From IMG/VR virus record IMGVR_UViG_3300031825_000019, positions 1-46,071 of that record: a stretch of 46,071 nucleotides of DNA, one strand, 5' to 3'. Positions 1 through 46,071 of the stretch are shown piece by piece (within the stretch, counting starts at the first letter, position 1; each line of letters opens with the position of its first letter). The notes below the pieces were generated by a model. The model was not told the origin of the DNA. It made no database searches and saw nothing but the letters and a program-made list of their open reading frames with translations. The stretch comes from a virus. Made by a program: the position numbers and the translations under genes.

Positions 1-558
1 CGAGAGTGCGTTCTCGGTCTCGGTGAGCGCCGCAGCCTGCCCGAACGTGCTCGGGATCTGCATGAGCTCGTCGAGGTCGTCGTTGACCATCGCCTCCCAC
101 GAGAACCCGAACTGGCGGCCGAACTTCGCCACCTGGATCGCGTACTCGCGGGTGTCGTGGTGCGCGCCCGGGTAGGCGGTGAGCTCGGGCACCCGGTCCA
201 GGGAGGTGCGGCCGCCGAGGAGGTCGATCATCTTCTTCGGCTTGAAGTTCCGCACCAGGGTCCGGGTCGCGAAACCCTGCCACTCCGGGGTGATCGCCGC
301 GTACTGGGCGAGCAGCTCCCGGTCCAGGACGTCGCCAGTGGCGGACACGAACAGGTCCGAGGTCGACAGGGCCTCACGGACCTGCACGGCGGCCCGGAGG
401 TCGCCGTCGAAGACCCGCTTCCACAGGTCCGCGGCCTCGGCGATCGCCTGTGCCCGCCTCGGCGAGTACTGGCGACGCGTCAGCGGGCTGGGCCCGGCGA
501 GCGTCTGGTCCTCGGTCAGGTTGAAGACCTCGGCGACGTTGATGATGCTGGTGTTCAT
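1..558 (-). CDS. Major capsid protein, N-terminal part (gene continues across the circular junction)
   Basis: First 186 codons of the major capsid gene, cut by the window edge exactly at a codon boundary; codon 187 onward is at the right end (46071 down to 45508), giving a 373-aa protein. The start ATG at 558 follows an AGGAGG ribosome site. The protein resembles actinophage capsids of the Mu gpT-like/HK97-fold type, with a middle section rich in aromatic and charged residues (QFGFSWEAMVNDDLDEL) typical of that family. It lies just downstream of the DUF2190 gene and the protease/scaffold gene, the normal head-gene order. Its product would form the icosahedral shell. Assignment rests on remembered family pattern and on position, not on a search. 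Confidence 0.88.
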   Translation of the reverse strand, partial: MNTSIINVAEVFNLTEDQTLAGPSPLTRRQYSPRRAQAIAEAADLWKRVFDGDLRAAVQVREALSTSDLFVSATGDVLDRELLAQYAAITPEWQGFATRTLVRNFKPKKMIDLLGGRTSLDRVPELTAYPGAHHDTREYAIQVAKFGRQFGFSWEAMVNDDLDELMQIPSTFGQAAALTETENALS

Positions 559-569
559 CGTGGTCCTCC

Positions 570-926
570 TCAGACCTTGGCGAGCTTGACGCGGATGGTG
601 GCGGGGGCGGTGCCCTTGGCCTCGAGCGCGTACCCGAACAGCGGGTTCGCGCCCGTGTTGTCGGTCGTCGTGAGGACGTTGGTCGCCGTGATGATGTAGA
701 TCGGCTGCCCGATCGTGCGGGCGGTGTTGGTGGTCACCGGCAGGTCGAAGACCCCCTCGGTCCACACCGACGCGTTGCCGTCGACGTTGCCGCCCTCGCC
801 CTCCTTGGTGGCGGTGACGCCGACGATGGAACCGACGATCACGGCCGAGCCGGACGCGGTGTCGGCCGGCACGGGAAGCGACAGCTTCGCGTCCGGGCTG
901 GTGGGGTAGAACACCTCGTTCTTCAT
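570..926 (-). CDS. DUF2190-type head decoration/stabilisation protein
   Basis: A 118-aa protein with the pattern of DUF2190 proteins: an N-terminal LSLPVPADTASGSAV-like segment, a VGVTATK stretch, a V.TEGVFDLPV strand and a C-terminal GYALEAKG...IRVKL. Proteins of this kind are encoded directly upstream of the major capsid gene in many tailed phages and are thought to decorate or stabilise the capsid. Here it sits 11 bases upstream of the capsid start and 2 bases after the protease/scaffold stop, in the same operon. The start ATG at 926 is preceded by AAGGAGGC. Function as a decoration protein is inferred from family and location. Confidence 0.75.
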   Translation of the reverse strand: MKNEVFYPTSPDAKLSLPVPADTASGSAVIVGSIVGVTATKEGEGGNVDGNASVWTEGVFDLPVTTNTARTIGQPIYIITATNVLTTTDNTGANPLFGYALEAKGTAPATIRVKLAKV

Positions 927-11708: not shown

Positions 11709-11959
11709 CGGCTGGCGTCCTTGGGGTCTGAGATCTCCTGGTGGGTGGATGTCACGTTGGCTGGGGTCGCGCCCCCTCTCCCTCTCCTAAAGGAGAGGGG
11801 GGCGCGTGACTTCTGTCCGTGACTTGTGCGTGACTTTCTGACCTGCGGTTTTGTGTTTTCCGTGACTTCGCGTGACTTCTCGCGTGACTCTGAGAATCCG
11901 GACATTCTGGGACACCGTGACTTCCGTGACTTCAGCGTGACTTTCTGTAGCGGGCTCAC
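11705..11959 (-). CDS. Short ORF over the octamer array, 84 aa
   Basis: An ORF joined to both neighbours: GTGA with the helicase stop and ATGA with the small terminase start. Its middle encodes repeated Lys-Ser-Arg peptides because the DNA carries nine octamers read as AAGTCACG on this strand. The protein looks low-complexity and basic. It may be a true small gene, or simply an open frame that keeps translation coupled across a DNA site. Codon use is less GC-rich than in its neighbours. Confidence 0.4.
   Translation of the reverse strand: MSPLQKVTLKSRKSRCPRMSGFSESREKSREVTENTKPQVRKSRTSHGQKSRAPLSFRRGRGGATPANVTSTHQEISDPKDASR
11778..11801. repeat. Inverted repeat beside the octamer array
   Basis: CCTCTCCT (11781-11788) and AGGAGAGG (11791-11798) are perfect complements around AA, and pairing continues outward with G-T pairs to about 11778/11801. 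It lies 4 bases from the first octamer and about 70 bases before the small terminase start. It could be a cruciform or landmark in an origin or packaging site; a terminator is less likely because no T-run follows on either strand. Confidence 0.5.
11805..11943 (+). repeat. Nine CGTGACTT octamers in three groups of three
   Basis: Copies start at 11805, 11818, 11829; 11861, 11871, 11883 (CGTGACTC); and 11916, 11925, 11936. All point the same way. Within groups they are 9-13 bases apart, about one helical turn; the groups start 55-56 bases apart. The stretch between groups one and two is locally AT-richer (GTTTTGTGTTTTC). The array follows the helicase gene and precedes the small terminase gene, so it is either an iteron-like replication origin or a terminase recognition site (pac/cosB-like). 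Confidence 0.8.
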
Positions 11960-13503
11960 ATCTGGTCCCTTCGGGCGGCGGGGAGGTAGGCGGCTTCGGC
12001 TCCGCGACCGCCGAGGATGGACGGCTGCTTGAAGGCGAGCTCGTGGGTGACGAACCGTTCGAGAGCACGCCTGGCCTTCTCGATCTCGGACCGGGACGGC
12101 TTGTCCTTCTTGGTCATCAGGCAGGCGGCGGTGGTGGGGGTGAGGCCGTTGCGGCCGCGGGCGCGCATCTGTTGGAGGAGGTCGATCTTGGGGGTGATGG
12201 TGGAGGTTCCGGTGTCGTGGTCGTGGGTGACTTCGAGGGGTCCGAACTCGCCAGCTGGTTGCTTGAGGTGGCGGAGGTTGACGACGGGGTCACCGGCGGC
12301 TCCCCAGAGGGAGAGGACGGACCCGGCGCCGGCGGTGATCCAGGTGGAGCCGTAGAGCTCGTCGAGGGACTTGGGTTCGGCCTTGGCGTGGTCCTGGGCG
12401 CGTTTTCGGTAGTGGTGGAGGGCGAGGACTTCGATGCCGGCGACGAGGGCGCGTTGGATGGCGGAGTTGAGGCCGGCGCCGACTTCGTCGTCGGAGAGGC
12501 CGAGGGCGACGTCCTTGAGTGAGTCGATGATCACGGCGTCGGCGTGGACGAGCTGGCACATGCGGGTGAGTTCGTCGGGGTGCTTGGCGAAGTCGCGGTC
12601 GGGTGGGCCTTTCCAGAACACGAGGTGTTCGTGGAGGATGTCGCGGTGTTCGTCGGTGACCATGCGTTCGAGGGAGCGGGCGGCTTGGGGTGGTCGGTCG
12701 GCGGCGATGTAGAGGACTCGGTTGAAGGGGCGGACTGGGATGGTGAGTGCGTCGGGGCGGATCCCGATGCCGGCGAGCATGACCTGTTGGGCGATGGTGG
12801 TCTTTCCGACGCCGGCGGGGCCGGCGATGAGGAGTGCTTCGCCTTGGGCCCAGAGGACGTCGTCGGTGGTGCCCCAGGCGGTGGGGATCTCGGTGGGGCG
12901 GTCGAGGATGAAGGTGTCGCCGAGGATGAGGCGGCCGTGCTTGTCGGCTTTGGAGGGGCCGAAGTTGGTGGCGACTTGGTCGGCGAGGTCGGAGAGCTCG
13001 GCGAGGTTGGAGCTCATGTCGTCGACGGTGGTGGTCGCGATGCGTTGCCGCATGCGGATGAGCTGGTCGTCGAGGCGGCGTAGGCCGGAGGCTTCGCGGA
13101 TGAGTTTGGCCCAGTGTTCGACCTGGGTGGTCAGGGGTGGGAGCAGTGGGGCGATGTCGCGGATGCTGAGGAGGTAGGTGTGTCCGCCGGCGAGGGTGAG
13201 GTTGCCGTGTTCGTGGAGGTGTCCGAGGAGGGTGGGGTGATCGGGGATGAGGCCCTTGTCGACGACGCTGCGGATGCTGTTGTGGATGAGCTCGTGGCGG
13301 GGCTGGTAGTAGTCGGCGGGGTCGACGAGGTCGAGGAGGTCTGCGGCGGTCTCGGGGTACTTGAGGAGGGACGCGATGAGTTGGCGTTCGGCTTCTTGGG
13401 CGACGTCTTGGGGTGTGACGGGGCGTACGCCGTTGGTCGAGGGGGCGTCGTACTCGGGGTCGAACGGCGGCTCGTCGGGTGGTGGGAGGTGCGTGGTGGT
13501 CAC
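11956..13503 (-). CDS. DnaB/RepA-type replicative helicase
   Basis: A 515-aa protein starting at GTG 13503 in a GTGA overlap. Residues about 30-140 resemble a DnaB N-terminal domain (QDVAQEAERQLIASLLKYPE...YYQPRHELIHNSI). From about 190 onward there is a RepA-like P-loop ATPase with Walker A GPAGVGKTT (228-236), IAADRPPQAARSLERM and Walker B ADAVIIDSLKDV (321-332), then a conserved LHHYRK segment. It would unwind phage DNA at the fork. It lies directly upstream of the octamer array, a usual relation between a replication protein and its origin. Confidence 0.82.
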   Translation of the reverse strand: MTTTHLPPPDEPPFDPEYDAPSTNGVRPVTPQDVAQEAERQLIASLLKYPETAADLLDLVDPADYYQPRHELIHNSIRSVVDKGLIPDHPTLLGHLHEHGNLTLAGGHTYLLSIRDIAPLLPPLTTQVEHWAKLIREASGLRRLDDQLIRMRQRIATTTVDDMSSNLAELSDLADQVATNFGPSKADKHGRLILGDTFILDRPTEIPTAWGTTDDVLWAQGEALLIAGPAGVGKTTIAQQVMLAGIGIRPDALTIPVRPFNRVLYIAADRPPQAARSLERMVTDEHRDILHEHLVFWKGPPDRDFAKHPDELTRMCQLVHADAVIIDSLKDVALGLSDDEVGAGLNSAIQRALVAGIEVLALHHYRKRAQDHAKAEPKSLDELYGSTWITAGAGSVLSLWGAAGDPVVNLRHLKQPAGEFGPLEVTHDHDTGTSTITPKIDLLQQMRARGRNGLTPTTAACLMTKKDKPSRSEIEKARRALERFVTHELAFKQPSILGGRGAEAAYLPAARRDQM

Positions 13504-14024
13504 GAGTACACCTCCACCGGGTTGGCGCGGTACTCGGGGGCGTCGCCGGTGAGGCCTTCGTAGCCCCACCAGCAGATCCAGACGTGGCCGGCGGCGCACT
13601 GGTACCAGGCGCGGCCGTCGGGGCGCCACTTGTAGGGGAAGTAGAGCGCCTGGCGACCGTTGGGGACGCAGCGGTCGTGGCAGTCGTCGGGCATGGTCTC
13701 GGCGTGGGTGCCGAGCTTCGCGAGCCACGGCTCTTCGAGCCAGTCTGGTGTTGGGGGTTCGACGGGCATGCGGACGCCGCCGCGGTTGTGGACGATGTTG
13801 TAGCGGGGGCTCTCGTTCTGGATCGCGGCGGTCTCGGCGGTCAGCACGGTCTCCCGGTCGGGGTGGACTTCGAGGGTGATGTTGGTGACTTCGTGCCACC
13901 AGGGCTTCTCGCCTCGGTGGGAGCGCCATCGGGAGACGGGGTCGGCGGTGATGCCGACGTAGAGGAGTGCGCCGTCGGCGGCGTAGAAGCGGTAGAGCAC
14001 GTGGTTCTGGGTGGTGAGGGTCAC
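13500..14024 (-). CDS. GIY-YIG nuclease-domain protein
   Basis: A 174-aa protein. The GIY-YIG fold is seen as LYRFYAADGALLYVGIT (residues 10-26) with a following Arg (SRWRSH, 31-36), Glu (TAETAAI, near 64) and Asn (YNIVHN or IQN), the usual catalytic set. The C-terminal half has a different, Cys/Trp-rich character (QCAAGHVWICWWGYEG). The start GTG 14024 has AGAGGA upstream. It may be a free-standing endonuclease of phage DNA metabolism or a homing-type enzyme. Located between the helicase and a 176-base gap with no gene. Confidence 0.75.
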   Translation of the reverse strand: MTLTTQNHVLYRFYAADGALLYVGITADPVSRWRSHRGEKPWWHEVTNITLEVHPDRETVLTAETAAIQNESPRYNIVHNRGGVRMPVEPPTPDWLEEPWLAKLGTHAETMPDDCHDRCVPNGRQALYFPYKWRPDGRAWYQCAAGHVWICWWGYEGLTGDAPEYRANPVEVYS

Positions 14025-14200
14025 CGTTGTCCTCTGGTCCTCGAGCTGGCAGGGGGTTGGGTGCGTGCGGGCGGCGGTTCCGTGGGCAGGTGCGCCTGGT
14101 CCCTGACGTTCGGGGCGGGGTCGTGGGCGTCCTTCGAGGTGAAGTAGCGAAGTCCTCGTTGACGCACGTCCGGCCGCCCGCACGCGGTTCGGGGGGAGGG

Positions 14201-14701
14201 CTACCTGGGCACGGTGAAGGGGTCGAGCACGGTGGCGTCGTGGGTGTCCTCGTCCTGGTCGGGGACCACGGTGCCCACGGTGAAGGTGTCGCCGTCCTCG
14301 GTGTCGCCGTCCCACAGGCCGGTGACCTCGCCGGCCTCGTCGGTCTCGACCAAGGCCGCGGCGGCCGCGAGGACCTCGGGCACGGTGGGCTCGTCGTTCT
14401 CCAGGTCGAGCTGGGCGTCGCCGCCCTCGGCGAGCTGCCGGTTCATGTAGAGCGCGCGGTGGATGCGGCGGACGGCTTCGTCGACCTGGCCGTTGAGCTG
14501 GCCGTCGACGACGGGCTCGAGCTCGGTAATGACGAAGTCGACCTTCTGGTCGCCGTCGGCCTTCTCGTGGGTCTCGTCGACCTTGAGCTCGACGATGGCC
14601 ATGATGCGGCCGCCTGGCTGGTGGTAGAGCTTGGTGGCGAGGTCCTCGGTCATGCCGGTGGCGGAGAGGCCCTTGGCGCGGATCTTGGCGGTGGTGGTCA
14701 T
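14201..14701 (-). CDS. Conserved actinophage protein, 166 aa, unknown function
   Basis: Recognisable as a protein type common in actinophage early regions: TAKIRAKGLSATGMTEDLATKLYH, then GGRIMAIVELKVDETHEKADGDQKVDFVI, a short basic helix (EAVRRIHRALYMNRQL) and an acidic C-terminal tail rich in Asp, Glu and Thr. No reaction is known. The ATG at 14701 overlaps the upstream gene (ATGA). The acidic tail recalls the tails of single-strand DNA-binding proteins, but the core does not look like an OB fold to me. Confidence 0.6.
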   Translation of the reverse strand: MTTTAKIRAKGLSATGMTEDLATKLYHQPGGRIMAIVELKVDETHEKADGDQKVDFVITELEPVVDGQLNGQVDEAVRRIHRALYMNRQLAEGGDAQLDLENDEPTVPEVLAAAAALVETDEAGEVTGLWDGDTEDGDTFTVGTVVPDQDEDTHDATVLDPFTVPR

Positions 14702-14922
14702 GCGTTCTCCTGAGTGGTGTGGGCGGTGCGGTCGATCGCGGGAAGCAGGGGGTGCTGGCGGCGGTAGTCGAGGATCCGGTCGGCGTCGCGCAGCTCGCGC
14801 TCGACGGCCTCCAGGTCTCCCCGCAGCTGCTTGGCGTGGGCGGCGAGCCGGTTGCGCTTGCGCTGCGCGACGGCATACGCCTCCTCGGCGCGTTGCCGTT
14901 CGGTCTTGGGCTGTCGGGTCAC
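14698..14922 (-). CDS. Small coiled-coil protein, 74 aa
   Basis: Almost entirely one charged helix (AEEAYAVAQRKRNRLAAHAK, then LRGDLEAVERELRDADRIL), so a likely coiled-coil dimer. It is translationally coupled to the following gene by ATGA and lies 16 bases after the MerR-like gene; the sequence before its GTG/ATG start contains AGGAA. Function unknown. Confidence 0.55.
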   Translation of the reverse strand: MTRQPKTERQRAEEAYAVAQRKRNRLAAHAKQLRGDLEAVERELRDADRILDYRRQHPLLPAIDRTAHTTQENA

Positions 14923-33118: not shown

Positions 33119-33349
33119 TCAGGTGACCTTGAAGCACATCGGGGGCAGCGGCGGCGCCCAGAGGGCGTAGCCGAGGTCGGACAGGGCGAAGGTGGACCCG
33201 GCGACCGTGAGCGCGCCGACGGGGCCCTGGCCGTTGATCTCGACCTGGAACGGCGCGGTCGAGGTGCACTTGACGCGGACCAGCCGCAGGCCGGGAGCCT
33301 CGTCGATGCGGCGCAGGATCGCCTCGACCAGCGGGTCGCGGGTGGTCAC
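33119..33349 (-). CDS. Small tail-region protein, 76 aa
   Basis: Begins VVTTRDPLVEAILRRIDEAPGLRLVRVKCTS and continues with beta-strand-like sequence. GTG 33349 overlaps the DUF5047-type gene (GTGA). Position suggests a minor tail component; no family known. Confidence 0.55.
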   Translation of the reverse strand: MTTRDPLVEAILRRIDEAPGLRLVRVKCTSTAPFQVEINGQGPVGALTVAGSTFALSDLGYALWAPPLPPMCFKVT

Positions 33350-34446
33350 GACTCGGCCAGCTCGGCGAGGTCGGTGGAGCGGGCGGTGATCTCCTGGGCG
33401 CCGCTGACCAGGTCGAAGGTGAAGTCCTCGAGCAGGTAGGTGCCGGACAGGCCCGGGTCGGAGCCGGTGGCCTCGTGCACCACGGCGAGGGTGTCGCCGT
33501 ACTCCAGTGCCGGGTTGCCCAGCACGGTGGCCTTGATGTGGTCGGTGGTGGTCAGCAGCCGCTGCAGGATGCCCTCGCCGGCGGCGACGGCCTGCGCGGC
33601 GGTGGTGATCATCGGCGAGGTGTGGAAGTAGGGCACGACGCCGACCTTGTCCGGGTGCCGGGGGTGCGCCGGGTCGGAGACGGAGACGGTCTGCACGGAC
33701 CAGAGCTGGGTGTCGTCGACGGGGATCACGACCACGGTGTTGTAGAGCCGGTCGAAGGGGTGGTCGTGGGAGGCGTCGATGATGTTGGCGGCGTTCCCGG
33801 TGCGGGCCGTCCACACCGGGGCCGTCGGGGTGAGCGCCGGCTGGGCGCGGATCACGTACCGGCCCAGCGCGTCGAAGCCGACGTCGAGGTTGCCGTCCTT
33901 GGCCAGGTCGGCGATCGCCTGGAGCCGATCCCGGTCGAACATCGCCGCGGGCATGGTGCCGCCGTCGGCGAGCTTGATCACCGTGGCGGTCGCGATGGCG
34001 TCGGTGACCATCGCCTCGATCGCGTCAGCCCGGGTACCGCCGGAGACCACCCAGGGAGCGGTGAACCGGCACCGGGCCAGCCGGGTGGTCTGGTCGACCA
34101 GGGTCAGCGGGACCTCGCCGACGGTGAGGGGGTTGTTGCCCTGGGTGGCCTCGTAGACGCCGAGGTCGATGAGCTCGGACTGGCCGGCGCCGTAGCTGAT
34201 GCCGGCGCGGATGGTGAACAGTGCCCCGGGGGTGGAGACCAGGGCGTGCACGTCGGTGCCGGGCATCGGGGACAGGCTGAGAGTCGCGGTGTACCGGGCG
34301 CCGACGTCGGAGAGGGTGACCGACCCGGCGTCGATGTCCAACGGGACCGGGGTGCTCGAGCCGGGCTGGGTGACGGTGATCTCGCGGACCCGGGCCTGGT
34401 GGGTGTTGGCGATCGCGTCGCGGAACCGGTCGGTGATGGGCCTCAT
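33346..34446 (-). CDS. Minor tail protein, DUF5047-like
   Basis: A 366-aa protein beginning MRPITDRFRDAIANTHQARVREITV, with PLDIDAGSVTLSDVGARYTATLSL and, later, a region TPTAPVWTARTGNAANIIDASHDHPFDRLYNTVVV. This resembles DUF5047-type tail proteins of actinophages, comparable to the lambda-type hub/Dit-Tal region that links tail tube and fibres. It lies after the NHL-containing tail gene with an ATGA overlap and before small tail genes. Confidence 0.7.
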   Translation of the reverse strand: MRPITDRFRDAIANTHQARVREITVTQPGSSTPVPLDIDAGSVTLSDVGARYTATLSLSPMPGTDVHALVSTPGALFTIRAGISYGAGQSELIDLGVYEATQGNNPLTVGEVPLTLVDQTTRLARCRFTAPWVVSGGTRADAIEAMVTDAIATATVIKLADGGTMPAAMFDRDRLQAIADLAKDGNLDVGFDALGRYVIRAQPALTPTAPVWTARTGNAANIIDASHDHPFDRLYNTVVVIPVDDTQLWSVQTVSVSDPAHPRHPDKVGVVPYFHTSPMITTAAQAVAAGEGILQRLLTTTDHIKATVLGNPALEYGDTLAVVHEATGSDPGLSGTYLLEDFTFDLVSGAQEITARSTDLAELAES

Positions 34447-36491
34447 GAGGGGCCCGCCAGCACGTCGAACCAGGTGCCGTTCTGGGCCAGCACGTCGGCC
34501 CAGGTGGCGTAGCCGGTGAGCACGTCGCCCCAGGTCCACTGCGCGGTCTGGGCGACGATCGGTGCGTCGACCGGGGTCAGGGGCAGCGTCAGGGTGCGGT
34601 ACACCTTCGGGGTGGGGCTGTGGTCGGTGAGGTTGAAGTCGCCGACGTCGCGGGTGTCGGTGACGTCGCCGACGGCGTAGTACCCGTCGGGCAGGTCCCA
34701 GCCGAATGCGGGCGGGACGCGGAGCAGCAGCGGGGTCTGGTCGTTCAGGGCGGCGAGGACGTCGTCGCGCAGGGCGAGGGTGGGCGCGAACAGGCGCATG
34801 GTCCAGGCTCCGTCTCGGCGGGTGCCGTTGGTGATCACGACCTGACGCGGGCGTCCGACGGGGGAGAAGATCTCGGCCTGCTGGGCGTAGCCGATCTCCT
34901 CGGCCGAGGACCACTGGACGGTGAGGGCGTCGGGGCGGCGGTAGCCGGAGAGGTCGAGGGACAGGCCGGGGGTGGCGGGGTGGATCAGCCATGCGTCGGC
35001 CGGGGTGAGGGTGGCAGTGTCGGTGTCGGAGAACACCTCCTCGGTGGCCGGCGGGGTCTCGATGATCTGCCCGATGCCGGTGAAGACCTGGGCGTACTTC
35101 CGGATCAGCTTGTTGGGGCCGTCCGCGACGTAGATGTGGGCGGAGGCGTCAAGTGCGATGCCCCAGGCGGCGCCGGTGGTCGACCAGGTCGCGTTCTGGG
35201 TGCCGATGGTGTTGTACTTGCGGACCACCTTGTTGTCGTAGTCGACGACGTAGACGCTTCCGAGCGCGTCGACGGCGACGCCTCGCGCAGTGCCAGTGGT
35301 CGACCATGATGCGATCTGGGTGCCGGCGGGGTCGTACTTCCGGATCAGCTTGTTGGGGCCGTCCGCGACGTAGACGTTGCCCGCGGAGTCGAGGGCGACG
35401 CTGTACGGCGCGCCCACTGTCGACCAGGATGCGACCTGGGTGCCAGCGGCGTTGTACTTGCGCAGCGTGCTGACCGCGAGGTTGGTCTCGGTGCCGACGT
35501 AGACGTTTCCTGCGGCGTCGAGAGCCATCGACAGAGGTACATCCGTGGTCGACCAGGATGCGACCTGGGTGCCAGCGGCGTTGTACTTGCGCAGCAGGGA
35601 GTACTGGGTGTCGATGACGTAGACGTTTCCGGCGCCGTCAACTGCGACGCCGTACGGAATGCCCGTGGTCGACCAGGATGCGATCTGGGCCCCTGCCGCG
35701 TTGAACTTCCGGATCAGCTTGTAGTCCCAGTCGGCGACGTAGACGTTGCCCGCGGAGTCGAGGGCGACGCTGTACGGCAATCCGCCTGTCGCCCACGTGC
35801 CGAGCTGGCTGCCGGTGAGCCCTTGGGAGACCAACTGCACCTTCACCGGGGTGCCGGTGAAGGCGGCCGAGAGCGACCAACCAGACCCGGAGACGGTGGC
35901 CACGCCGCCAGCGAGTACCAGCGAGAGCGACCCGCCACCAGCCGTGGTGACCGCACCGGCTGCCGTGGTCAGGGTGACGGTGCTCAGGCCCACCAGGATC
36001 GAGACCACGACGGCGTTGGCGGCGTCGCGCAGCTCGATGCCGGCGTACACCGGGTCGGTGACGTCGAGCCTGCCGATCGCGCCGCTGGCAGAACGCGCCA
36101 GGGTCACGCCGGCCACCGACGCCTGCGCCTTGCCGCCCGAAGCGATCCACCCGGACCCGGTCCACGCGGCCAGGTTGACCCAGCTCTCGGACCAGTCGGT
36201 GTTCGTGGGCGGCAGGACCAGGCCCTCCACGGCGTACTGGGCCAGCGACCCGAATGGCGCCTCGTAGTCGTAGGTCACCGACACCGAGGACCCCACCGGC
36301 GGCTGGGTTCGGATCGGGACACCGTCGCGGGTGATCTTCAGCGCCGTGAACGCGGTCATGGTGTCGTCAGTGCGCAGGTCCAGCCGGATCCTGGGCGGCA
36401 CGTTGTCCGGCTCCGGGGTCGCCGCGAACGGGGTCACGGTCGTCCCGCCGTAGGGCCCGATCCCGTAGCCGCCGATGCCGTACCCGGGCAT
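34443..36491 (-). CDS. Minor tail protein with an inserted six-bladed NHL propeller
   Basis: A 682-aa protein. It opens MPGYGIGGYGIGPYGG, usual for actinophage minor tail proteins; about 80-220 is beta-rich. Residues about 230-472 are six NHL repeats of 40-43 aa, each with P.(S/G)(V/M)A(L/V)D..G(N/S)VYV.D......(L/V)RK(Y/F)...G.Q, enough for one closed propeller. The last 210 residues return to tail-protein sequence (LTPADAWLIHPATPGLSLDLSG; TWADVLAQNGTWFDVLAG). Propellers bind proteins or sugars, so this is a likely receptor-binding insert. Lies between the SGNH tail protein and the DUF5047-like gene. Confidence 0.85.
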   Translation of the reverse strand: MPGYGIGGYGIGPYGGTTVTPFAATPEPDNVPPRIRLDLRTDDTMTAFTALKITRDGVPIRTQPPVGSSVSVTYDYEAPFGSLAQYAVEGLVLPPTNTDWSESWVNLAAWTGSGWIASGGKAQASVAGVTLARSASGAIGRLDVTDPVYAGIELRDAANAVVVSILVGLSTVTLTTAAGAVTTAGGGSLSLVLAGGVATVSGSGWSLSAAFTGTPVKVQLVSQGLTGSQLGTWATGGLPYSVALDSAGNVYVADWDYKLIRKFNAAGAQIASWSTTGIPYGVAVDGAGNVYVIDTQYSLLRKYNAAGTQVASWSTTDVPLSMALDAAGNVYVGTETNLAVSTLRKYNAAGTQVASWSTVGAPYSVALDSAGNVYVADGPNKLIRKYDPAGTQIASWSTTGTARGVAVDALGSVYVVDYDNKVVRKYNTIGTQNATWSTTGAAWGIALDASAHIYVADGPNKLIRKYAQVFTGIGQIIETPPATEEVFSDTDTATLTPADAWLIHPATPGLSLDLSGYRRPDALTVQWSSAEEIGYAQQAEIFSPVGRPRQVVITNGTRRDGAWTMRLFAPTLALRDDVLAALNDQTPLLLRVPPAFGWDLPDGYYAVGDVTDTRDVGDFNLTDHSPTPKVYRTLTLPLTPVDAPIVAQTAQWTWGDVLTGYATWADVLAQNGTWFDVLAGPS
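35076..35804 (-). repeat. Tandem ~120-bp repeats encoding NHL blades
   Basis: Six repeat units of about 120 bases (one of about 129) within the minor tail gene. Some copies are nearly identical over tens of bases, for example around 35418-35466 versus 35551-35597 and around 35096-35136 versus 35336-35376. Such repeats can gain or lose blades by recombination, and they may also be hard to assemble correctly from short reads. Confidence 0.85.
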
Positions 36492-36495
36492 GCTG

Positions 36496-38511
36496 CTAGA
36501 CGGCCTTCGCCAGCATGCGCGGCACGCCGAACACGTTCGGGGTGCTCGCCCACGTGGAGGGAAGCGCCCCGGTCACACCGTCCTGGTAGTACCCGCAGAC
36601 GTTGAACTGGCTGATCGCGGCCGCCGACGCGGCCTTGATCGGGCCCGGGAAGATCACCGCGGACGGGGCGCTGGCTCGCACCGTGGGGGCGCCGCCCTGG
36701 GCGGTGACGGTGTACCAGTACCAGCCCGGCTTGAGGTTCAGGTTCGACGCCAGGGTCTTCGGCTTCACCCCGGTCGTGGTGGAGTCGATCGTGCCGGCGT
36801 CGACCAGCGGCGCACCGCTCAGCGGCTCCCCGGTCGCCGGGTTGTGGGCGCGGATGCCGAGCCGGATCGTGGAGGCCGCGGCCGCGGTGGTGACCTCGAC
36901 GTCGAGCTCGGGGATCGTGGTCTCCGAGGTCACCTCGAACGGGATGGCGAACTCCCGGCCGGCGGTCAGCGCCAGGGTGGTCACCGAGGTGCCGCCGGCG
37001 AGGATCCAGTACCTCCCGGACTCGATCACACCCTCCGGGGTGCGGCGCAGGCCGGCGTTGACCGCGGCCTGCTGCTTCGCCGTGTCCGACAGGGTCTGCG
37101 CGTAGTTGACCCGCACGAACTGCCCGGCCACGATCTCCGGGCAGGACGGGAGGATGCCCTCGACGAGCGTGGCCCACTCCCAGGAGTTGACCGTCCCGAC
37201 GTTGGTGCCGAGGTTGTCGCACATCAGGTACGCCGTCAGCTGGGCCGCTGTGGCGCCGACCTTCATCGTGACCGCGTGGACGACGAAGTCGCCGTCGGAC
37301 CACTGGTCGTAGACCCCGGCGACCGCGGAGACCCCGTCGTAGAGCTGCAGCGTCGCGCGGCTGGAGGTGTTGTCAGCCGCCGGGCTGCCCGCGCGGCAGC
37401 GGGCCGCGAGGGTGACGTACTTGCCCTTGAGCCGGGCCAGGGTCGGGGCGTTCACGCTCTGCATCAGCGCCGCCACGCCGGCCCCGGTCGAGGTCATCTT
37501 CAGGCTGTAGTTGTTGCCGTTGGTGCCCTCGAAGTTGACCAGGTCCTTCGACAGGGTCACGTTCGCCGCCAGCCACCCGGTCGGGGCGTTGGCGCCGTCG
37601 AAGGCTGAGAACTGGCCGTTGACCAGGACGTCCTTGCCGACTGGGGCGACGAACGCCGACGGCGCCTGCGGCTGCGGGACCGTGCTGATGTTGACGAACG
37701 CCCGGTCCCAGACCGTGTCGGCCCACAGCGTCTGCCCGAGGTCGTTGCAGTGGGCGGTGTCCTGCATGTAGTCGGTCCGCGCGGCCCCGAGGTCGGCGAA
37801 GACCTGGGTCATGTTCAGGTACCCGTAGCCACGGGCCTCACAGACCTGCCGGATCATCTCCGCGACCAGGAACGAGTCCGGGGCGCCGGCGGTCGTGACG
37901 ACGTGCTGGGACACGCACAGCAGCGGGGCGGTCGGCACGACGGCGCGGATCGACTCGGTCAGGCACAGGTACTGGGCACGGAAGTCGTCGGGCACGTGGG
38001 TCGAGGTGAACGCGAGCTCGTTGGCGCCGTGGTCGATGATCACCAGGTCCGGGTTCGGGGTGATGACCATGTTGGTGAGCCGGGTCAGCGGGTAGCGGCA
38101 GTTGGTGCCGCCGGCGCCGCCGTTGTAGACCCACAGGGTGTGCGTGCCGGTGCCGGTCTGCAGCGTCGTCCACGACCCGTAGTCGCCCGGATCCACGTAC
38201 GGGGTGTTGTTGGTGTTCCACTGCGCGATCTTCACCGTGTACGTGGGGAACCGGGCGGCCAGCTTCTGCGCGATCCGGGTGGTCCACGGGGTGCCGTAGA
38301 TCGCGGTCGTGGAGTCGCCGACGTACACCAGCGACGCGTCGGCCTGGTCGGCGGAGAGCTTCGCCATCAGCCGGGCCGCGGCCGCGCTGGCGGACATCGC
38401 CGAGACGACCGTCGTCTGGGCAGCCTCCGCGGTCTCCTTGACGTAGGTCAGGCTCGCGTTGAGCTTGACGTCGTAGGGGTCTTCTCCGTGTGCCGGCAGC
38501 CCGTAGCTCAT
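36496..38511 (-). CDS. Tail fibre/tip protein with SGNH-hydrolase domain
   Basis: A 671-aa protein. After a helical stem (ASLTYVKETAEAAQTTVVSAM), residues about 60-280 form an SGNH/GDSL hydrolase: VYVGDSTT with nucleophile S67, IDHGANEL (block III-like GxN, 162-164) and MQDTAHCNDLG with D252 and H255. The rest is beta-rich, with a jelly-roll-like carbohydrate-binding region (about 290-430) and a further fibre domain. The domain would deacetylate or de-esterify cell-surface glycans during adsorption. It lies directly after the tape measure gene in transcription order. Confidence 0.8.
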   Translation of the reverse strand: MSYGLPAHGEDPYDVKLNASLTYVKETAEAAQTTVVSAMSASAAAARLMAKLSADQADASLVYVGDSTTAIYGTPWTTRIAQKLAARFPTYTVKIAQWNTNNTPYVDPGDYGSWTTLQTGTGTHTLWVYNGGAGGTNCRYPLTRLTNMVITPNPDLVIIDHGANELAFTSTHVPDDFRAQYLCLTESIRAVVPTAPLLCVSQHVVTTAGAPDSFLVAEMIRQVCEARGYGYLNMTQVFADLGAARTDYMQDTAHCNDLGQTLWADTVWDRAFVNISTVPQPQAPSAFVAPVGKDVLVNGQFSAFDGANAPTGWLAANVTLSKDLVNFEGTNGNNYSLKMTSTGAGVAALMQSVNAPTLARLKGKYVTLAARCRAGSPAADNTSSRATLQLYDGVSAVAGVYDQWSDGDFVVHAVTMKVGATAAQLTAYLMCDNLGTNVGTVNSWEWATLVEGILPSCPEIVAGQFVRVNYAQTLSDTAKQQAAVNAGLRRTPEGVIESGRYWILAGGTSVTTLALTAGREFAIPFEVTSETTIPELDVEVTTAAAASTIRLGIRAHNPATGEPLSGAPLVDAGTIDSTTTGVKPKTLASNLNLKPGWYWYTVTAQGGAPTVRASAPSAVIFPGPIKAASAAAISQFNVCGYYQDGVTGALPSTWASTPNVFGVPRMLAKAV

Positions 38512-38528: not shown

Positions 38529-41500
38529 TCATCGGCGGCGGTGGTGCAGCTTCTGGGCCTGCACGGTCTTGCCCTGCACGACCGCGTCCCCGACCTTCTT
38601 GGCGTTGTCGTGCGAGGAGTGCTCGATCACGTTCTGCAGGTGCTTGATCTCCTTGTTGAGGTCAGCGATCTGCTTGTTCATCGAGACGAGCTGCTTGTTG
38701 GACTCGTCGATCTGCGGGGCGTATACGGTGTTGCCGGCGAACGACCCGACCGCGGAGACCGCGTTGGCCCGCTGTTCGAACGCGGACTGGTACTGCGCCA
38801 GGTCGGCCCGGGAGAGGTTCGCGAACGCCTGCGCCCTCTGGATGTCTCCGGTTTCGGCGAGTGCCTGGAACGCGCCATCGGTCAGACCGTTCGTAGCCAC
38901 GGTGTCGAGCAGCTTCTGGAACTGCAGGGCGTTGGCGGTGTCGGCCCGCAGCTGGTCCACCGGCCCCTGGGTCAGCGCCCTCTGCCGGTCGGCCTCCGAC
39001 ATGTACGCCAGGTTCGACGGCTTCTGGTCGAAGATGTCCGTGGTGAAGCGCCCTGAGACTGTCGCTGCGATCTGGTCACGCTTGGAGACCAGCTCGTCAC
39101 GCTGCCGGGTCTCTTCGTCGAGTGCCTTGGTCGCCTTCTCCAGCGCCGTCTTGAACCGGTTCAGCTCGTGCCGGGGGGTCTCGTTCGGGTGGCTGCGGGA
39201 GTAGGTCGACAGGCCAGCCGGGCCCCCGACTGTGCCGCCGTCGGCGAGGCGGTTCGCGTTGATCGCCTTGAGGAACGGCCGCCACCGGTCGGCCTGCCCG
39301 TACCGGTTGGAGATGACCTCCTCGGTCGGGGCAAGCAGCGCCGGAACACGGTCGCCGTAGACACCCCGCGCGCCCGGGACGGTGGCCCCGTCGGCCGGTG
39401 TGATCGGCTGACCCAGCAGGTCGCCGACGCCGCCGGCCTTGCCGGTGCGGACGTGGACGTCCACGGTCCGCGGGCGGGTGACATCGCGGAGGTACGCCTC
39501 GAACTTGCCGAGCGCGGCGATGGCCGGCCCGGTCTTCGCGGTCACCGTGGGCGCGATCGTCAGCCGGTCGAGCCCGGCCGCGGCCTGCTTGACTCCGCGG
39601 GCCTTCTTGTCGAACCCGTCGGTGTCCAGGCCGAGCGACGCCGAGAGCTGCGCGACCGGGTTCTTCCCCCCACCGCCGCCGCGGCTCTTGCCGGGGGTGC
39701 CGAACACGCCAGCGATGCCCGTGATGTCGGAGAGCAGGTCGATCGGCTTCAGCTTGCGGGTGTCGATCCCGTACAGCTCGGCGAGGACGTCCTCGGAGGT
39801 CTTCGGCTTCGGCTTCTTCGTCCCGCCCTTGCGGTCCGGGGTCAGCAGCGACTCGAGGCCCTTCGCGACGTCGGCGACGATGTCAGGGCCCGCGGGCCGA
39901 CCGCCCTTGTAGTTCGGGTCGAGCAGGAACCGCAGGTTCTTCAGGTCCGCCTTCTTGTCGGTCTCGACGAGACCCGACAGGGCGTCCTCGACCGCGAGGA
40001 GGTCGCCGGCGCGGCCGCTGACCGCGGTGACGAACCGGTTGAAGTTCTGGCCCTTCCCGCCGTTCTGGAGCTTGTCGATCTCGGTCCGGAGCCCGACGAG
40101 CGCGGCCCGCTGCTCCTTGATGTCGTTGGAGTCCAGGGCGTCCAGGGCCCGCCCGAGCGCGCTCTTCGTGGAGTCCCCGGCATGGAGGACATCCAGGCCG
40201 GCGCCGAGCGTCCCGCCGACGGCGGCACCGAGTGGGCCGCCGAGTTGCCCGCCGACGATGCCGCCGGTGACAGTGCTGCCGGTGTGGGTCTTGTCGGTGA
40301 CGCCGAGGGCCATCAGCGCAAGGCCGCCAGCGGTCAGGGCCAGGCCGGTGCCGCGGGGCAGGGCGAAGCCCTTGACCTTCCCGCCGCCGGTGCCGCCGCC
40401 GAGCACGGTGGTCCCGCCCTTGCCGCCCGCCCCGGCGAGGCTGCCGGCACCGAGGTTGGTGACGAACACCGGCACCGGTGCGGCCAGGCTCGCAGCCCGG
40501 CCCAGACCCGTCGCACCACCACCGCGGACACCGCCACCACGCAGGTCGCGGGCTACGTTTCGGATCTTCGAGATCGCGAAGAACGCCGCCCCGATCCCCG
40601 AGGTCAGCACCGCGACCTTCACGATGCCCTGCTGCACCTCGTCGGGCAGCCCTTGGAAGGCGTGCACCAGGTCGTCGGCGTTCTGCACCATGTCCCGCAG
40701 CCCAGCCTGGGCGGGCGAGCCGGCCTTGATGAACGCCGACTCCAGGGTGCCGGTGAACCGCTCCCAGTCGCCGGCGAGGTTGTTGAGCTTCTGGTTCGCG
40801 GTGTCGGTCGCGTAGCCCTGGTCGTTGACCTCCTTGGTCCACTTGCGCACGCCCTTCGCGCCAGCGTCGTAGAGGATCGTCGCGGCCTGCATCTGCTCGT
40901 TGCCGAAGATCGTCCCCAGCGCGTACTGCCGCTGCTGGTCCGTCAACCCGCCCAACCGTGTGTGCAGGACACGCGCCACGCCGTCGAAGCCGATGAACTG
41001 GCCCTTGGTGTCGTAGAAGCTCAGGCCCAGGGCATCCATCGCCTTCTGCGCCTGGTGAGACGGCCGCTCGAGCGAGGCGAGCATGCCGCGCAGGCTGGTG
41101 CCGGCCTTCTCCCCGACCAGCCCGTTCTTCGCGAGCAGCGCGATCGTGCCGACGGTCTCCTCGAGGGAGATCCTCGCCGCGTGCGCGGGGACACCGACGT
41201 AGGACAGGGCCAGCGACATGTCGCCGACCTCGCCCTGGGCCTTCCCGGCCGACGCGGCGAGGAGGTCCGCGACGTGCCGGGCCTGGTCGCCGCCGAGATG
41301 GAACTGGGTCAGGGTGGTCGCGGTGTACTCCGCGGCGTCGCCCACCGCGATGGTGCCGGCCGCGGCCAGGTCGAGCGCACCCTTCAGGCCGCCGGAGAGG
41401 ATGTTGGCCGTGGAGATCCCGGCCTTGCCCTCCTCGGTGATGGCCTGGGCGGCCTCGGTGGAGGTGAACGCGGTGTCCGCGCCGGCCTTGATCGCCGCGG

Positions 41501-41807
41501 CCCGCAGCGCGTCGAACTCCTTGCCCTGCGCCCGGGTCGCGGCCTGGGCGGCGGACATCGTCTTGTCGAACGACAGGATCCGCTTCTCGGCGATCGCGAG
41601 ACCCGCACCGACCGCGACGGCGTACCGGCCGCCGTACTTCCCCATCGTGTCCCAGTCGCGGCCGGTCGACGCCGCCGCACCACGCACCGACCGCTGCATC
41701 CGCCCGGTCGCCTGCTCCGTGACGGCCGCCGCCTGGTTCGCGCCCCGGATGTAGGAGGCGTTCTCCATCGTGAGCCGGACAGCAGCAGAGCGGACGACGT
41801 TGCTCAC
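38529..41807 (-). CDS. Tape measure protein
   Basis: At 1092 aa this is the longest gene. The N-terminal 330 residues follow the phage tail tape measure pattern (MSAAQAATRAQGKEFDALRAAAIKAG; TAFTSTEAAQAITEEGKAG; GTSLRGMLASLERPS). Several hydrophobic Gly/Ala stretches near residues 465-535 (LALTAGGLALMALGV; GGIVGGQLGGPLGAAVGG) could insert into the membrane, and the C-terminus is a long coiled coil. By the usual 1.5 angstrom per residue the tail would be about 160 nm. GTG 41807 overlaps the chaperone stop (GTGA). Confidence 0.92.
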   Translation of the reverse strand: MSNVVRSAAVRLTMENASYIRGANQAAAVTEQATGRMQRSVRGAAASTGRDWDTMGKYGGRYAVAVGAGLAIAEKRILSFDKTMSAAQAATRAQGKEFDALRAAAIKAGADTAFTSTEAAQAITEEGKAGISTANILSGGLKGALDLAAAGTIAVGDAAEYTATTLTQFHLGGDQARHVADLLAASAGKAQGEVGDMSLALSYVGVPAHAARISLEETVGTIALLAKNGLVGEKAGTSLRGMLASLERPSHQAQKAMDALGLSFYDTKGQFIGFDGVARVLHTRLGGLTDQQRQYALGTIFGNEQMQAATILYDAGAKGVRKWTKEVNDQGYATDTANQKLNNLAGDWERFTGTLESAFIKAGSPAQAGLRDMVQNADDLVHAFQGLPDEVQQGIVKVAVLTSGIGAAFFAISKIRNVARDLRGGGVRGGGATGLGRAASLAAPVPVFVTNLGAGSLAGAGGKGGTTVLGGGTGGGKVKGFALPRGTGLALTAGGLALMALGVTDKTHTGSTVTGGIVGGQLGGPLGAAVGGTLGAGLDVLHAGDSTKSALGRALDALDSNDIKEQRAALVGLRTEIDKLQNGGKGQNFNRFVTAVSGRAGDLLAVEDALSGLVETDKKADLKNLRFLLDPNYKGGRPAGPDIVADVAKGLESLLTPDRKGGTKKPKPKTSEDVLAELYGIDTRKLKPIDLLSDITGIAGVFGTPGKSRGGGGGKNPVAQLSASLGLDTDGFDKKARGVKQAAAGLDRLTIAPTVTAKTGPAIAALGKFEAYLRDVTRPRTVDVHVRTGKAGGVGDLLGQPITPADGATVPGARGVYGDRVPALLAPTEEVISNRYGQADRWRPFLKAINANRLADGGTVGGPAGLSTYSRSHPNETPRHELNRFKTALEKATKALDEETRQRDELVSKRDQIAATVSGRFTTDIFDQKPSNLAYMSEADRQRALTQGPVDQLRADTANALQFQKLLDTVATNGLTDGAFQALAETGDIQRAQAFANLSRADLAQYQSAFEQRANAVSAVGSFAGNTVYAPQIDESNKQLVSMNKQIADLNKEIKHLQNVIEHSSHDNAKKVGDAVVQGKTVQAQKLHHRRR

Positions 41808-45507: not shown

Positions 45508-46071
45508 TCAGGCGCCGGTGCCCGCGTAGGTGTGGATCGGGTCGACCGAGGCCGCCCCGTTCACGTGACGCACCCGGTACCGCACCGAGTCGTCGTCGAA
45601 GTCCCCGGCCTCGGGCGACAGACCCTGACCGGCACCGTCCTTGCGGCGGATGTCGGGGGTCTCGAACCCGCGGAGGAACGCCGACGCGACCGCGATGCGG
45701 GCCGCCTGCGTCGGGGCCGGCAGCACGAACCAGCCCAGCCCCGGCAGCCGGTTCACGACCACCAGGTCCACCGCACCCGCGATCGGGTTCGGCTCGATGA
45801 TGACCTTCGACCCCACCGTGGTGCGGATCTCGGTGGCGTTGATGATCGACCGGGCGTTGAACTCCTGCGCCGGACCGACCAGCAGGATCAGACGCCCGGA
45901 CGGCACGATGTTGCCCTCGTTGTCCTTGCGCTGCCGGATCGCCTCGATCGCGGTCTGCAGGTTCGCCTGGTTCAGGACACCGGCCACCGGGGTGGTGTTC
46001 AGGCCCGACCCGACGTACCCGGCGACCGCCGAGTAGTCCTTGAAGAACGCCGTGTTGGCCGCCCCCGTGGT
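45508..46071 (-). CDS. Major capsid protein, C-terminal part (continues from base 1)
   Basis: The last 187 codons of the capsid gene plus its stop. At the junction the protein reads ...TETENALS|TTGAANTAFFKDYSAVAGY..., and the whole is 373 aa. The C-terminal half contains PSGRLILLVGPAQEFNARSIINATEIRTTVG, LVVVNRLPGLGWFVLPAPTQAARIAVASAFLRGFETP and DDDSVRYRVRHVNGAASVDPIHTYAGTGA, a recognisable actinophage gpT/HK97-like capsid end. It is followed by a hairpin and the head-tail connector genes. Confidence 0.88.
   Translation of the reverse strand, partial: TTGAANTAFFKDYSAVAGYVGSGLNTTPVAGVLNQANLQTAIEAIRQRKDNEGNIVPSGRLILLVGPAQEFNARSIINATEIRTTVGSKVIIEPNPIAGAVDLVVVNRLPGLGWFVLPAPTQAARIAVASAFLRGFETPDIRRKDGAGQGLSPEAGDFDDDSVRYRVRHVNGAASVDPIHTYAGTGA

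Follow-up and report, generated by a model that had tools for sequence, protein, structure and literature searches.

The virus contig analysed here (the window, 46,071 bp with a GC content of 70.6 %) is a metagenomic assembly from an uncultured virus and carries genes for an integrase, a terminase, a portal protein, a head protease, and a major tail protein. On its minus strand, a gene for a protein of 682 amino acids with NHL repeats starts with an ATG at 36491 and ends with a stop codon at 34443; the interval marked in an earlier, sequence-only reading of this DNA coincides exactly with this gene. In reading order it is preceded by the genes for a tape measure protein and a GDSL-type tail protein and followed by that for a DUF5047 tail protein, the ATG of which overlaps the stop codon of the NHL gene:

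38529..41807, minus strand: tape measure protein (phrog_1533, E 1.5e-84)
36496..38511, minus strand: GDSL esterase-like tail protein, upstream neighbour of the NHL gene (phrog_15641 tail fiber, E 1.4e-60; Pfam)
34443..36491, minus strand: NHL-carrying tail-tip protein (minor tail protein in the Dit position), 682 amino acids (phrog_16363 at residues 525-678, and synteny)
33346..34446, minus strand: DUF5047 tail protein, downstream neighbour of the NHL gene

The tape measure protein is closest to those of Arthrobacter phages (~47 % over its first third), and relatives of the DUF5047 protein are present in phages of Streptomyces, Propionibacterium, Arthrobacter, Rhodococcus, and Brevibacterium. 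As both proteins have their relatives in actinophages, the host of the virus is probably a high-GC, actinobacterial species. The reading frame of a capsid protein gene on the minus strand (window positions 1-765 and 45508-46071, 535 codons) appears to stay open across the joined ends of the contig, which may thus be a nearly complete, circularly permuted genome; the contig has no terminal repeat of 15-200 bases. Elsewhere in the window, an open reading frame of 458 codons (13500-14876, minus strand) specifies a GIY-YIG endonuclease domain at residues 292-360 and could encode a homing endonuclease, and a cluster of short tandem repeats of 9-12 bp, CGTGACTTT-like, is located at 11805-11943, perhaps in an intergenic region.

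The Pfam NHL model (PF01436) matches the 682-residue protein with E=4.2e-20 (71.2 bits against a cut-off of 20). Six repeats were found, together spanning residues 233-466, each with a length of 40-43 amino acids except for the last, which comprises 31 residues:

35085..35807, minus strand: six-bladed NHL β-propeller, residues 229-469 (Pfam, PDB matches, AlphaFold2)
35676..35795, minus strand: blade 1, residues 233-272
35556..35675, minus strand: blade 2, residues 273-312
35427..35555, minus strand: blade 3, residues 313-355, its b-c loop extended by 3 inserted residues
35307..35426, minus strand: blade 4, residues 356-395, with exact tracts in common with blade 1 (45 bp) and blade 6 (41 bp)
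35187..35306, minus strand: blade 5, residues 396-435
35094..35186, minus strand: blade 6, residues 436-466, three strands

The sequence-only reading had counted the same six repeats, sufficient for one closed propeller, and had proposed structure prediction as a check. An AlphaFold2 model of the protein, built with an alignment of 17 sequences, contains 24 strands (6x4) between residues 229 and 466, with pLDDT values of about 86-97 in this block. Blade 6 would, judging from the topology, be closed by the N-terminal strand at residues 229-234. The modelled propeller superposes on NHL crystal structures with Z scores of 31-36 at 1.4-2.3 Å, the NHL domains of TRIM2, TRIM3, TRIM71, and Thin reaching 35-36 and that of PknD 31.2 at 29 % identity. 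A sequence search of the PDB returned as top matches the six-bladed Pizza propellers, which are designed proteins, and PknD of Mycobacterium tuberculosis, from which they derive, with E values down to 2.9e-29; PknD itself (E 2.3e-21) is among the closest solved natural sequences. The prediction of one closed six-bladed NHL propeller at residues 229-469 is well supported by these data. The contig is a metagenomic assembly, and repeats can be miscounted when short reads are assembled, but the number of six blades is credible because it is the canonical NHL number and the reading frame is intact.

The propeller is flanked by the following segments:

36207..36491, minus strand: residues 1-95, glycine-rich N-terminus and domain 1, which contains a "YDYEAP" motif and is putatively FnIII-like, as judged from the core of the family
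35808..36206, minus strand: residues 96-228, N-terminal part of the insert, β-rich by prediction, with low pLDDT
34446..35036, minus strand: residues 486-682, C-terminal domain, homologous to proteins that VWB-like and other actinophages encode upstream of DUF5047
34456..34545, minus strand: three 30-bp repeats at the end of the protein, coding for TWGDVL/TWADVL/TWFDVL, a motif conserved through the phrog_16363 family

The DYE/DHE motif of domain 1, located around residues 73-80, is shared with VWB gp48 and Nesbitt gp17; this similarity is weak (E 0.007-0.04) and pLDDT is low here, the FnIII fold being seen in the model of the family core. The C-terminal domain matches phrog_16363 with an E value of 1.4e-10 and VWB gp48 with one of 5e-12. 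A query with the flanking regions, including the segment 96-228, gave no match in phages. No close relative of the whole protein is present in viral_contigs, and the phage records contain no relative of it outside the NHL part. Among 38 terminase-related records no notable relative was found, with one weak N-terminal match; those that could be compared carry other tail modules. None of these three collections yielded another phage that carries this NHL gene.

In seven annotated phages, the gene preceding that of DUF5047 lies immediately or almost immediately behind the tape measure gene, with a small extra gene in between in Nesbitt. Its product is short in PFR1, Juno112, and AGM1 (269-286 amino acids) and long in VWB, Nesbitt, Wollypog, and REQ1 (745-1326 amino acids). 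A scan with VWB gp49 yielded 51 loci, 50 of which have an upstream reading frame of 261-1445 amino acids, some of these lengths (e.g., in L163 and L165) including extensions of the frame outside the gene. About two dozen of the 50 frames match the C-terminus of the NHL protein. Alignment revealed a family core of ~265 amino acids, in which an FnIII-like domain precedes a C-terminal domain that ends in the TWxDVL repeats, and three places of insertion. Extra domains are located before domain 1 (the VWB type), inside domain 1 (L160 and Wollypog), or between both core domains (L165 and the NHL protein); internal inserts occur in L160, L162, L165, and Wollypog. The insert of the NHL protein covers approximately residues 96-470, between the N-terminal motif and the region of C-terminal core homology. 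VWB gp48, Nesbitt gp17, and their relatives in phrog_16363 resemble the NHL protein in their homologous C-terminal domain, in the position of their genes before that of DUF5047, and in having variable extra domains. None of the examined members of the family has an NHL domain.

When the core homologues were aligned over their full length, domain 1 was drawn to blade 1, and the model for placing them was therefore restricted to C-terminal pieces. The core of L159 was modelled with a mean pLDDT of 82, and the fold of its domain 1 is FnIII-like (Z about 11). In BFVD, the L159 core fold resembles minor tail proteins of Wollypog, PFR2, Wheelbite, Teatealatte, and other phages, the lengths of which differ widely; Wollypog gp18 and PFR1 orf14 are fold relatives of the phrog_16363 core. 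Fold searches with the core model were filled with FnIII proteins, with weak matches to contractile-injection baseplate or tube-like proteins and no Dit among the matches listed, which does not speak against a Dit fold of the C-terminal domain. A match of the core family profile to Pizza6 was rejected, being the sum of weak short matches of which no stretch passes on its own. Judged by its sequence, the NHL protein belongs to the family of tail-tip proteins whose genes immediately precede that of DUF5047 in actinophages. The C-terminal homology to phrog_16363, the N-terminal motif, and the tape measure/GDSL/DUF5047 context all bear out the earlier proposal that the propeller interrupts a tail-tip protein. 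Since relatives carry other inserts at the same or nearby places, the NHL propeller is a new cargo in a known type of "evolved" tail scaffold.

Scans with the NHL domain showed that its viral relatives are few. An NHL domain with 42 % identity is carried by another contig, the actinophage L103 (GC 0.63), inside a protein of 1118 amino acids of the phrog_837 minor tail family, the gene of which lies two genes after that of the tape measure; the flanks of this domain show no similarity above chance to the NHL protein. A weaker propeller was found in a phrog_14644 tail protein of L111, encoded after the tape measure and a minor tail gene, and a propeller-like protein is encoded in the tail region of L170. 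As these are different tail proteins, propellers appear to have been taken up several times by unrelated tail-tip proteins. In L186 (2433-4745, minus strand), a protein of 771 amino acids with several NHL repeats is specified in a phage-like gene row and may be a tail or baseplate propeller. The candidates from L104, L105, L107-L109, L176, L182, L185, and L187 were rejected as tail NHL proteins, having the appearance of giant-virus collagen fusions or of secreted proteins or lipoproteins. Five of these (L105, L108, L109, L176, and L182) combine collagen repeats with multiple NHL propellers, have an intervening domain in common, and probably stem from giant viruses. PknD-like NHL proteins are present on plasmids of Mycobacterium and Rhodococcus, and the closest NHL domains found on bacterial plasmids do not exceed 34 % identity with the phage propeller.

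At the DNA level, TRF detects a 120-bp array in the NHL region. The sequence-only reading had described near-identical repeats of 120 bases: the period was recovered and the array does contain three exact 40-45 bp tracts, but overall the blades are not nearly identical, their pairwise DNA identity being 62-83 %. The tracts are in register and occur between blades 1 and 4 (45 bp, p=0.001), blades 2 and 3 (40 bp, p<0.001), and blades 4 and 6 (41 bp, p=0.003); each is longer than expected from 1000 synonymous recodings with the codon usage of the phage. That all three exceed this null marks pieces of the blades as recently duplicated or gene-converted, indicating local exchange between blades of the kind that had been considered possible earlier. 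The propeller is lower in GC3 (0.885) than both the neighbouring tail genes (0.955, p=3e-5) and the remainder of the NHL gene (0.942, p=0.01), which is compatible with the propeller having been acquired later than its surroundings. Between blades, variability is highest in the b-c loop, with a mean pairwise identity of 0.27, and in the d-a loop, with one of 0.47. These loops form the usual ligand-binding face of propellers; their high variability is common in NHL repeats generally and not specific to selection for binding. Only some numbers of blades are compatible with a closed propeller.

The statement in the sequence-only reading that NHL propellers are not known as a tail domain proved too strong. 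The receptor-binding protein Gp45 of Staphylococcus aureus phage phi11 contains a five-bladed propeller proposed to bind the GlcNAc of wall teichoic acid, and PRD1 P2 and PhiKZ gp131 also have propellers (PMC4901313). Gp45 resembles the NHL protein in having a β-propeller, which is located in the baseplate of a siphophage. Gp45, however, is a separate trimeric protein, and its propeller is not of the NHL type and not inserted in a protein in the Dit position. For two closely related temperate Nitratiruptor phages, a study published in 2022 reports that the tail fibre protein gp61 of NrS-3 lacks 151 amino acids, corresponding to three of six NHL repeats, as compared to that of NrS-2 (PMC9723563). 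The two genes (L114:13820-16111 and L115:13844-15682) were found here to be identical except for one clean deletion of 453 bp, the junction of which is located within a 32-bp repeat (microhomology). Counting NGNVFV units gave 7 in NrS-2 and 4 in NrS-3, versus the published 6 and 3. The repeats, of about 50 amino acids each, match the Pfam family SBBP and gave no NHL match at E<=0.01. As in the NHL protein, propeller repeats (NHL according to the authors) are carried by a tail protein encoded after the tape measure, in this case two genes after it. The NrS phages differ in having Campylobacterota hosts and a fibre scaffold with an Ig-like domain in which no homology to the core was seen; their propeller is located near the C-terminus, whereas that of the NHL protein is inserted in a Dit-position protein. 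A change in the number of blades of a tail propeller is thus already known from NrS-2 and NrS-3. A partial propeller need not be dead, since designed PknD-derived fragments are described, in work cited in PMC6805158, as reassembling into six-bladed propellers.

A functional precedent is provided by lactococcal phages, in which an evolved Dit insert restored adsorption to EPS+ lactococci (PMC10688798). Both in skunavirus evoDit and in the NHL protein a core is interrupted by an inserted module, and for the evoDit inserts an effect on adsorption is proven. These inserts are BppA-like carbohydrate-binding modules while that of the NHL protein is a propeller, and the likeness seen here is one of insertion. 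We consider it fairly probable that the NHL protein, too, combines the core of its tail-tip family with a propeller that acts as an accessory module for binding to the host surface, an adhesion role modelled on the carbohydrate-binding inserts of "evolved Dit" proteins. In this reading, the protein would be held at the tail tip by its core, which accommodates, between its domains, the β-rich segment and the one closed six-bladed propeller as extra cargo. The propeller would face outward and bind to the host surface, where its ligand is probably a glycan or a polymer of the cell wall, and recent short-tract exchange between blades could reshuffle the loops of the binding face. That the location suits receptor binding, as had been noted earlier, agrees with the tail-tip gene context; the presence of the propeller in the virion, its anchoring, its binding to the surface, its ligand, and its effect on host range are all inferred.

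Other functions can be envisaged for the insert. Related propellers have been recruited independently into unrelated tail-tip scaffolds and the Dit inserts of lactococcal phages have a role in adhesion, which makes it unlikely that the insert is a structural spacer or a tail-tip decoration devoid of a specific ligand, even though the family tolerates many inserts differing in size and place. The propeller could also be an enzyme, such as a lactonase, a lyase, or a glycan hydrolase of the six-bladed type, modifying or cutting a polymer on the host surface. Propeller lactonases and an amidating lyase indeed superpose well on the model (8djf with Z 30.1, 3fvz with Z 29.8), and the adjoining gene encodes a GDSL esterase. 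Nevertheless, the best structural and sequence matches are the binding or scaffold NHL domains of TRIM2/3/71, Thin, PknD, and the designed Pizza proteins, the blades, which are highly symmetric, do not display an obvious, unique catalytic set, and the SGL/SMP-30 family of Pfam scores only 34 bits, without any individual stretch passing alone; an enzymatic role is on this evidence quite unlikely.

The resemblance to PknD raises the question of whether the phage captured an actinobacterial sensor domain of the extracellular PknD type and binds the ligand of the host sensor. The PknD extracellular domain (1rwi) and the designed Pizza6 have the same six-bladed NHL fold and are the best PDB sequence matches, although the former is the sensor domain of a kinase, the latter is a designed protein, and neither is part of a virion. 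The plasmid-borne PknD-like proteins and the low GC3 of the propeller would fit such a capture, but the phage tail NHL domain of L103 is closer than any plasmid-borne bacterial one found, and this origin is considered very unlikely. Beyond the accessory binding module favoured here, a wider proposal would be that NHL propellers are a mobile adhesion cassette among unrelated actinophage tail-tip scaffolds that diversifies by recombination between blades, with exchange, loss, or gain of blades serving as a host-range switch; this is regarded as doubtful.

With the protein described here, NHL propellers join the list of modules that actinophages have spliced into their tail-tip proteins, and phrog_16363 is identified as an "evolved" tail scaffold with at least three places of insertion. 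Residues 229-469 constitute a small module that can be expressed and tested on its own for surface binding. The signature of blade exchange, together with the deletion between NrS-2 and NrS-3, makes a change of blade number in tail propellers a testable proposition.
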